A stretch of DNA of 64,000 bases from Nisaea sp. (GTDB lineage Bacteria > Pseudomonadota > Alphaproteobacteria > Thalassobaculales > Thalassobaculaceae), in contig NZ_JAEPQA010000002.1 of NCBI RefSeq assembly GCF_017640745.1, positions 124,001-188,000 on the forward strand, in the 5' to 3' direction. This document shows, piece by piece, positions 41,840 to 46,755 of the stretch. A program made the position numbers and the translations under genes. The notes under the pieces were generated by a model. It had not been told where the DNA came from. It did not search any database and saw nothing but the letters and a program-made list of their open reading frames with translations. How positions within the stretch are numbered: the stretch's first letter is position 1; each line of letters begins with the position of its first letter.

Positions 41840-42052
41840 TCAGTGCTTCGGGGCCGGCTTGATGGTGGGCTCGAAGCTGACCTTTTTCTGCATCACGGCA
41901 TGCAGGTCGAACAGCGTCGCGATACCGCGGCCGACCATCTTCAGGGCTTCGTGGACGGCCTTGGACCGTTCCGCCCGGCCGGCGGCCATGTAGCGTTCGA
42001 TATCGGCGTGATTGATGATCTGACGTTCGATCTTTGGGCTCTTCGCAGTCAT
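41840..42052 (-). CDS. small protein, DUF1127-like
   Basis: A 70-residue basic protein. The core ADIERYMAAGRAERSKAVHEALKMVGRGIATLF is a predicted amphipathic helix pair similar to small alphaproteobacterial DUF1127-type proteins, some of which take part in RNA or phosphate stress responses; the function here is unknown. The ATG at 42052 has AGGAG seven bases upstream, so the longer track ORF is rejected. It resembles the next small gene. Confidence 0.65.
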   Translation of the reverse strand: MTAKSPKIERQIINHADIERYMAAGRAERSKAVHEALKMVGRGIATLFDLHAVMQKKVSFEPTIKPAPKH

Positions 42053-42244
42053 TACAGTGCTCCTGTCTAAAGGCGCGCCCGGTTGTTGTTGCTGCTTGGC
42101 TTCTGCGTTTCCCACGATCGGAATGTAACCGAACGGGTTCCGGGTTTCCATGTTGCATTGCAGCAAAGATGGCATGCGAAATCGGAATGTTTCAGATATA
42201 AAGCATTCGCGTTCTGCATGAGTGCCGCAAGCGGTCCGGAGGGC

Positions 42245-42439: not shown

Positions 42440-42852
42440 CTCTTTTCTCCATGAACCGGTGATGAGAAGAAGATAATCGTTCCTTCGAGGGAGAGAATTA
42501 ACTATTCAGCCATCAAATTAGTGCAATTTATGCATCAATAAAAAGGCCGAGAGAACTTTTATGGCCAATTTTTCTATATTTTGTGCGGTGATCGGTCGAT
42601 TTGGTCTCGAAAAGTGAACAGTCATTGCCCGGTGGATTTCTCCCCGGTGTCCGGTCTTTGACCTGCCGGAGCGAGAGTCAGGCCGCGATCCGCCGCAACG
42701 CAGCCATTCGGAAGCGCGTTTTGCATCGACAAAAAACGCCGAAGGCCCTAAAAACCGCCGCACTGTTCGGCCGGTGAGGCTTCCCGCACCGGCAGGACCC
42801 ATTCGAGCCGGTACGGCTTCCTGTGCCGGCAGGAACAGAAAGGAGCTCTTCG
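42440..42852. other. 413-base spacer between the small genes and the queuosine operon
   Basis: No convincing gene is present; the track ORFs here are shadows. Bases 42480-42600 are AT-rich and may hold promoters for both directions. Bases 42713-42740 include GCGTTTT/AAAACGC arms. The last 80 bases hold the tandem hairpin leader described separately. Confidence 0.5.
42770..42845 (+). promoter_or_regulatory. tandem-hairpin leader, possible SD-sequestering pseudoknot
   Basis: Two similar hairpins stand in tandem. The first is GCCGGTG/CACCGGC with loop AGGCTTCCCG (42770-42793). The second is GCCGGTAC/GTGCCGGC with loop GGCTTCCT (42807-42830). A 20-base segment repeats with a period of 37 bases. 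In the second, loop bases TTCCT (42818-42822) can pair with the SD AGGAG (42841-42845), leaving an A-rich AGGAACAGAA linker; this is the shape of an H-type pseudoknot hiding the ribosome site. It directly precedes a queuosine-precursor transporter gene. The pairing is worked out by hand only. Confidence 0.45.
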
Positions 42853-43428
42853 ATGAGCACTTCCGACACGGCCGTTTTCGGCCGCACCGGGCTGATCGCC
42901 GGCATGACCGCCATGGGCATCGTCGTCCTGGTCTCCAACATCGCGGTCAATTACCCGATCAACGACTGGCTGACCTGGGGCGCGCTGACCTACCCGATCG
43001 CCTTCCTGGTGACCGATCTTGTGAACCGCATCTTCGGTCCGGGCCCGGCCCGCAAGGTCGTCTATGCCGGCTTCGCGCTCGGCGTCGCCCTGTCGCTCTG
43101 GTTCGCCGACCAGCGCATCGCGCTCGCCTCCGGCACCGCGTTCCTGACCGCGCAGCTGCTCGACATCTGGGTCTTCGACAAGTTGCGCCGGCAGAGCTGG
43201 TGGAAGGCGCCGCTGGTTTCTTCGCTGCTGTCCTCGGCGCTCGATACCGCGCTCTTCTTCTCCCTCGCCTTCTACGCCACGGGCCTGCCCTGGGTGACCT
43301 GGGCGATCGGCGATTACGGCGCGAAGCTTGCCATGGCGGCGGTGCTGCTGGTTCCCTTCCGGGCCTTCATCGCCGTCCTGCCGCAGCGCTTCCAGCGGAA
43401 TGAGCCGGCGGCGGACGTCGCCGGGTAA
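42853..43428 (+). CDS. yhhQ: VUT family queuosine precursor transporter
   Basis: A 191-residue inner-membrane protein with about six spans. The family block LTWGALTYPIAFLVTDLVNRIFGPGPARKVVY and FLTAQLLDIWVFDKLR match VUT/YhhQ transporters, which import preQ0, preQ1 or queuine. AAAGGAG precedes the ATG at 42853, so the track start 42823 is too early. It is the first gene of yhhQ-queA-tgt-queG, so its product feeds the tRNA modification made by the next three genes. Confidence 0.93.
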   Translation: MSTSDTAVFGRTGLIAGMTAMGIVVLVSNIAVNYPINDWLTWGALTYPIAFLVTDLVNRIFGPGPARKVVYAGFALGVALSLWFADQRIALASGTAFLTAQLLDIWVFDKLRRQSWWKAPLVSSLLSSALDTALFFSLAFYATGLPWVTWAIGDYGAKLAMAAVLLVPFRAFIAVLPQRFQRNEPAADVAG

Positions 43429-43437
43429 CCAGTGCCC

Positions 43438-45602
<2,165 letters not shown>

Positions 45603-45612
45603 CGGAGCGCGG

Positions 45613-46755
45613 ATGGAGCCGGAACGGCGGATCAAACCAGAGCAGCGCATCAAGGACGAGGCGGCCGCCATCGGGTTTTCCGCTGTCGGCATCACCTCCG
45701 CCGAGGTTGGCACCCGCGAACAGGACCGGCTCCGCGAGTTCGTCTCGAACGGCGAACATGGCGACATGGCCTGGATGGAAACCCATCTGGAGCGCCGCAT
45801 CGCGCCGAAGGCGATCTGGGAAGGTGCGCGCTCGGTCGTCGTGCTGACCCAGAATTACGGCCCCGATCACGATCCGATGGAGAACCTCGCGGCGGCGGAT
45901 CGTGCGAACATCTCCGTCTATGCCCGCAACAAGGACTATCACGACCTCATCAAGAAGCGCCTGAAGCGCCTCGCTCGCTGGATGGTCGAGCAATATGGCT
46001 GCGAGGTGAAGGTCTTCGTCGACACCGCGCCGGTGTTGGAGAAACCGCTCGCCGCGCAAGCCGGGCTCGGCTGGCAGGGCAAGCACACCAACATGGTCTC
46101 GCGCGAACACGGCTCCTGGGTCTTCCTCGGCGAGGTCTTCACCGACATGGAGCTGGCGCCGGACGCTCCCGAGAGCGACCGTTGCGGCAATTGCACCCGC
46201 TGCCTCGATATCTGCCCGACAAACGCCTTCCCGCGGCCCTACGCGCTCGACGCGCGGCGCTGCATCTCCTACCTGACGATCGAGCACAAGGGGCACATTC
46301 CCGAGGAATTCCGGGAGGCGATGGGGAACCGTATCTATGGCTGCGACGACTGTCTCGCAGTCTGTCCCTGGAACAAGTTCGCGGAAACCTCGGCGGAGGC
46401 GGCCTTCGCCGCGAGGCACGATCTCGACCTGCCGCCGCTCGCGGAGTTTCTCGGTCTCGATGACGAGGCGTTCCGTGCACGGTTCAGCGGCTCGCCCATC
46501 AAGCGGATCGGCCGCGACCGGTTCCTGCGCAATGTTCTGATCGCCTGCGGGAACAGCGGGGACGTCTCTCTGCTGCCGGCTGTCGAAGCGCTGAGATCCG
46601 ATGGCGCCCCGATTGTCAGGGCGATGGCGGTCTGGGCGCTGGGACGCCTCACGGAACGTGATGCCTTCCTTGCCTTGCGCGAGGCTGCGCTCGGCAGCGA
46701 GGAGGATCCGGAGGTTCTCAAGGAATGGGATAAAAAAGGGACGGTCCGTCCCTAG
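45613..46755 (+). CDS. queG: epoxyqueuosine reductase QueG
   Basis: QueG reduces epoxyqueuosine to queuosine using cobalamin and two 4Fe-4S clusters. The 380-residue protein holds CGNCTRCLDICPTNAF and CDDCLAVCPWNKF as cluster motifs, and a HEAT-like C-terminal segment (DVSLLPAVEALRS to WALGRL) that binds tRNA. The ATG at 45613 has GGAG five bases upstream. It is the last gene of the operon, ten bases after the tgt stop. Confidence 0.95.
   Translation: MEPERRIKPEQRIKDEAAAIGFSAVGITSAEVGTREQDRLREFVSNGEHGDMAWMETHLERRIAPKAIWEGARSVVVLTQNYGPDHDPMENLAAADRANISVYARNKDYHDLIKKRLKRLARWMVEQYGCEVKVFVDTAPVLEKPLAAQAGLGWQGKHTNMVSREHGSWVFLGEVFTDMELAPDAPESDRCGNCTRCLDICPTNAFPRPYALDARRCISYLTIEHKGHIPEEFREAMGNRIYGCDDCLAVCPWNKFAETSAEAAFAARHDLDLPPLAEFLGLDDEAFRARFSGSPIKRIGRDRFLRNVLIACGNSGDVSLLPAVEALRSDGAPIVRAMAVWALGRLTERDAFLALREAALGSEEDPEVLKEWDKKGTVRP

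Follow-up and report, generated by a model that had tools for sequence, protein, structure and literature searches.

What does the short leader of the queuosine transporter gene yhhQ do in Nisaea? The question arises in a 64,000-nucleotide stretch of Nisaea sp. DNA (contig NZ_JAEPQA010000002.1, positions 124,001 to 188,000; hereafter the window, with positions counted from its first letter). Here two similar hairpins precede yhhQ, the first gene of yhhQ-queA-tgt-queG. We conclude that the element is most likely a genus-restricted leader for translation control, and perhaps an orphan riboswitch. The fuller claim, that the leader controls translation with a queuosine-related signal, we regard as evenly balanced between right and wrong.

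Both hairpins lie on the + strand, between a promoter-like hexamer pair and the Shine–Dalgarno (SD) sequence of yhhQ, and have the loop core GGCUUCCY in common. Hairpin 1 is GCCGGTG-AGGCTTCCCG-CACCGGC (42770–42793) and hairpin 2 is GCCGGTA-CGGCTTCCTG-TGCCGGC (42807–42830). The seven-base core GGCTTCC occupies 42778–42784 in the first and 42815–42821 in the second, so that the two starts are 37 bases apart. The original prediction had described two similar hairpins with this period before yhhQ, and that description holds. Nowhere else in the window are there paired hairpins of at least 7 pairs with an identical 7-mer within 60 nucleotides, and 100 first-order Markov shuffles of the window gave a mean of 0.02 such sites. 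The leader also folds better than its dinucleotide shuffles (z = -3.39; 0/200 as good).

Each of the five Nisaea genomes has the element at a single place, in every case before yhhQ, and it is also present in a record named Nisaea nitritireducens. Two of the five sequences are identical, so the alignment holds four distinct sequences (n = 4) and its statistics are modest. Alignment between the species breaks down upstream of the promoter-like pair, and the window's upstream gene was not seen in the stretch compared from two of them. The element is therefore a unit of its own. Conserved RNA structure before one gene, the general mark of a cis-regulatory structured leader, is thus what the locus presents. 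A dispersed palindrome resembling repetitive extragenic palindromes was considered and rejected, as there is one place per genome and the second matches in genomes G017 and G018 are the opposite strand of the same place.

The stems of both hairpins are kept in the four species. Hairpin 1 has one two-sided change and one mismatch; in hairpin 2, two pairs are changed on both sides and several on one side, and one is mismatched. Taking the twin hairpins together with a candidate outer stem (described below), 98% of alignment cells are paired and 3 pairs are changed on both sides. This covariation score was reached by only 6/500 shuffles and was lost when the partners were slid. The support stems from the two hairpins and not from the outer stem. 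Conserved, covarying pairing in relatives, on which the original prediction had staked itself, is therefore present for the hairpins among the four sequences. An extended single hairpin, which is the energy minimum of the window's sequence, was rejected as the conserved form: 92.5% of its cells are paired and it does not exceed shuffles, whereas the twin hairpins reach 98% and covary more.

While the stems change, the loop cores do not. All hairpins of the alignment (8/8) have the loop NGGCUUCCYR, with both seven-base cores invariant. Four-fold degenerate sites of yhhQ differ between the window and its relatives by 22, 27 and 42%, yet 0/14 loop-core bases changed in each of these comparisons and at most 1/12 outer-arm bases changed. 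This indicates, at the level of sequence, that the leader is under purifying selection.

Two palindromic repeats close to a promoter could instead be DNA operator sites, bound by a transcription factor just downstream of that promoter. The stems, however, change with compensation while the non-palindromic centre is fixed. Species also differ, by up to four bases, in the distance between the repeats, and with it in helical phase. We regard operator sites as very improbable.

Invariance of both loops calls for a specific partner, be it a small molecule or a protein. Protein-bound leaders commonly carry two copies of a short invariant loop on variable stems, and the identity of the loop in every hairpin fits this pattern. 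The loops could then be the binding site of an operon product such as Tgt, or of another RNA-binding protein, which would repress translation or stabilise the messenger RNA (mRNA) with no small-molecule aptamer involved. No protein partner is indicated, however. Tgt recognises UGU in tRNA, but the loops are without UGU, which occurs only in the outer arm. A protein site is on balance unlikely, though we give it serious weight.

Where does the transcript begin? A -35-like hexamer, TCGACA (42726–42731, +), lies within the block CATCGACAAA, which is invariant in the four Nisaea sequences. A -10-like hexamer, TAAAAA (42749–42754, +; TATGAA or TATGAG in relatives), follows after a 17-nucleotide spacer of constant length and variable sequence. 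A strict promoter scan did not list this pair. The pair ends 8 nucleotides ahead of the outer stem's 5' arm, a spacing that is constant, and transcription therefore probably starts at the element itself, near 42762. The candidate outer stem would join CTGTTC (42763–42768, +), nearly invariant in the four species, to the complementary and invariant GAACAG (42833–42838, +). In the RNA form CUGUUY/GAACAG, one pair changes from C-G to U-G and the others do not vary. The outer stem could close a three-way junction at the predicted 5' end of the mRNA.

A stem at the predicted transcript start also suits a passive role, as 5'-terminal stems stabilise mRNAs. The outer stem and hairpins would then guard the mRNA from decay or fix its translation rate, with no signal. 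Such a role does not account for seven loop bases that stay identical in both hairpins while stem sequences change, and we consider a passive structured 5' end clearly unlikely.

The 3' arm is followed directly by an A-rich tail and the SD sequence, AAAGGAG (42839–42845, +), conserved as A3-4 GGA. No terminator-like site was found. Because the element adjoins the SD sequence and such a site is missing, translational control is favoured.

Two pairings could hide the SD sequence. The first is the SD-hiding pseudoknot of the original prediction. On paper, TTCCT of loop 2 (42818–42822) can form five pairs with AGGAG (42841–42845), including a U-G pair, and the A-rich stretch ahead of the SD bases would serve as linker. 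In the four species 5, 4, 5 and 3 of these pairs can form. The three at the core are the same in every species; of the two outer ones, one is broken in a single species and the other in two. The same loop is also present in the SD-distal hairpin, so conservation of the loop cannot be put down to SD pairing alone. An SD pseudoknot is thus possible from the sequence. The second pairing is a candidate hairpin over the SD sequence and start codon (42842–42864, +), in which GGAGCUC would pair with GAGC...UCC of codons 2–4. It folds in 4/4 species at -5.7 to -8.1 kcal/mol, with a shifted register in G017, and we keep it as a folding-based possibility whose registers differ between species. The two pairings are mutually exclusive where both use the SD sequence. 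This hairpin, the outer complementarity and the promoter-like pair had all been overlooked in the original prediction.

The genes downstream suggest what the signal might be. All four lie on the + strand, and each passes family-model cut-offs: yhhQ (42853–43428; queuosine precursor transporter, TIGR00697), queA (43438–44481; NCBIfam equivalogs), tgt (44478–45602; TIGR00430) and queG (45550–46755; TIGR00276), whose true start may be further downstream. Judged by these assignments, yhhQ-queA-tgt-queG is a queuosine salvage operon, in agreement with the earlier proposal that the operon imports and uses a queuosine precursor. In the other four Nisaea genomes, too, queA follows yhhQ.

The genomes differ in the rest of the pathway. 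QueF is present and QueC has no match over its cut-off in the window's genome (G000) and in the single-contig genome G016; both proteins are present in G017 and G018. QueD is found only below its cut-off in 5/5 genomes. In G019 the match of a QueC-like gene (L200) is split in two pieces with A+T-rich surroundings, unlike QueC of the other species, and this gene was possibly acquired or broken. The gene content suggests that de novo preQ0 synthesis has been lost in part of the genus. With QueF and without QueC, the window's genome and G016 would depend on imported preQ0 or preQ1. It is therefore plausible that the yhhQ leader senses a precursor, the import need serving as context and not as proof.

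No element shared with the regions upstream of queF or queC was seen. Beside queF, on its upstream side, two loci (L204 and L206) carry palindromes of the GTCATCCCG type that resemble a dispersed Nisaea repeat. In the window, a small open reading frame upstream of the leader (41840–42175, - strand) passes the RSP_7527 family cut-off. Reading frames of this type occur in two other Nisaea genomes and not in the stretch compared from the remaining two.

Conservation, the two hairpins, the invariance of their loops, their position and the gene context are established. They can be joined into a mechanism in which RNA-level control, the switching step and the signal are each inferred. The mRNA of yhhQ-queA-tgt-queG would start with a structured leader of ~90 nucleotides that ends 3–4 nucleotides before the SD sequence. 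In it, two hairpins with the same GGCUUCCY loop would follow the transcript's 5' end, where the outer stem may close them off, and the whole would act in cis on how translation of yhhQ starts. The SD sequence and start region would be hidden in one state, through pairing with loop 2 or with codons 2–4. In the other state they would be free. The signal would be recognised at the two invariant loops. It would most naturally be a compound of the queuosine pathway (preQ1, preQ0 or queuine), since import and use of such a compound is what the operon serves; preQ1 or queuine as the ligand is plausible from gene context only. A more specific version would make the leader a new Nisaea riboswitch class for a queuosine precursor. 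By analogy with guanidine-II, the two identical GGCUUCC loops would meet through GG-CC pairs flanking a pyrimidine gap, bind the ligand there, and signal to the SD sequence via the outer stem or loop 2. This version we hold as a tentative and rather doubtful proposal.

Several results weigh against a leader that switches translation in this way. There are only four distinct sequences, all from one genus. Across them neither the loop 2–SD pseudoknot nor the outer stem shows covariation, although the invariance of the three core loop 2–SD pairs is expected of SD bases. Folding of single sequences favours no one common structure in all species; such differences are expected, as the four arms are mutually complementary. 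Finally, no convincing element was found outside Nisaea in the more than 700 proteobacterial genomes sampled, which cover the order (31 further genomes), the class (385) and the phylum (399). These samples overlap, and the class and phylum searches applied strict filters and scored the best candidates only, so distant members may be missed.

The original prediction had suggested turning to other Rhodospirillales leaders, and no further members turned up there: in other genera of the family and class, yhhQ leaders are unrelated to the Nisaea element. In an exact pattern scan of an 84,980-species collection, both stems occurred only at the Nisaea locus among the matches listed. Weak model matches elsewhere are scattered G+C-rich hairpins that look like chance. 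Matches in four genomes of one alphaproteobacterial genus were also rejected; the two that were read both lie just downstream of a SAM-II riboswitch. One match upstream of yhhQ (L184) has TTTTT after its hairpin and is an intrinsic terminator.

Does the leader belong to a known class? No Rfam family matches it, and no literature on a Nisaea riboswitch was found. The preQ1-I model (RF00522) gave no match, but it also misses a proven riboswitch: for the E. coli K-12 yhhQ leader (L162, 1673–1714), an Rfam cmscan at E up to 2 reports no preQ1 element. The silence of Rfam on the Nisaea leader is therefore weak evidence. For preQ1-II (RF01054) and preQ1-III (RF02680) there was no match up to E = 10 on 42700–42900, a result that has no positive control for these two. 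What stands of the novel queuosine leader first proposed is a selectively conserved, structured leader with no Rfam match; its SD-hiding pseudoknot lacks the support of covariation.

The closest comparison is with preQ1-I type III. Gammaproteobacterial yhhQ is under preQ1 control, and the E. coli yhhQ riboswitch of this type has a crystal structure (PMC10622847). In type III, mutating the specificity C weakens binding 64,000-fold (PMC10622847). We gathered sequences from Pseudomonadota by pattern, aligned 20 and built a type III model. It scores E. coli, which is in the model, at 48.3 bits and a left-out gammaproteobacterial case at 39.3 bits. The Nisaea element gave no match, and other alphaproteobacterial yhhQ loci gave no good one. 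Since this 20-sequence model easily finds the E. coli riboswitch that Rfam misses, Rfam negatives are uninformative for type III, and type III elements are probably under-annotated. The earlier statement that the Nisaea leader does not match the preQ1-I core agrees with the outcome of the type III model.

Hairpin 2, the A-rich tail and the SD sequence might still form a divergent type III riboswitch. They precede the same gene and are arranged much as in E. coli, with a UUCC loop, an 8-nucleotide linker and A3-4 GGA. For P2, the pairing of the type III loop with the A-rich tail and the SD GGA, Nisaea offers three to five possible pairs, none of which covaries. The model that finds the E. coli and left-out cases nonetheless does not find the Nisaea element, and the type III core GUUCCCUNACC (UU motif, pyrimidine loop, and AC with the specificity C) is not present in it. 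At the position of the specificity C, which falls in the hairpin stem, the four species have C, A, C and U. Such a divergent member is highly improbable.

The Nisaea leader matters for how queuosine uptake is controlled. Gammaproteobacterial queuosine-precursor transporters are run by preQ1-I type III, and the sampled alphaproteobacterial yhhQ leaders show no known riboswitch. Should preQ1 or preQ0 prove to be what the Nisaea leader senses, the same ligand would act on the same gene through an independent RNA fold, and some of the organisms, lacking QueC, would depend on import.

The guanidine-II riboswitch has loops that are ACGR tetraloops, and two hairpins with such loops are not found in the Nisaea element. 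The likeness to guanidine-II (mini-ykkC; PMC5486947) lies in loops of identical sequence between which GG could pair with CC on either side. The Nisaea element differs in its GGCUUCCY loops, its gene context and the lack of an Rfam match, and loop–loop contact in it is hypothetical. With preQ1-I type III of E. coli yhhQ, Nisaea shares the yhhQ leader, a small hairpin with UUCC in a pyrimidine-rich loop, the 8-nucleotide linker, the A-rich stretch and an SD GGA within reach of the loop (PMC10622847). In contrast, Nisaea has two hairpins and not one, longer stems, no GUUCCCUNACC core and no conserved specificity C. The preQ1-II and preQ1-III riboswitches have other architectures and are reported mainly from Bacillota or metagenomes; like the Nisaea element, they form SD-proximal leaders of queuosine-precursor transporter genes (PMC11625349).
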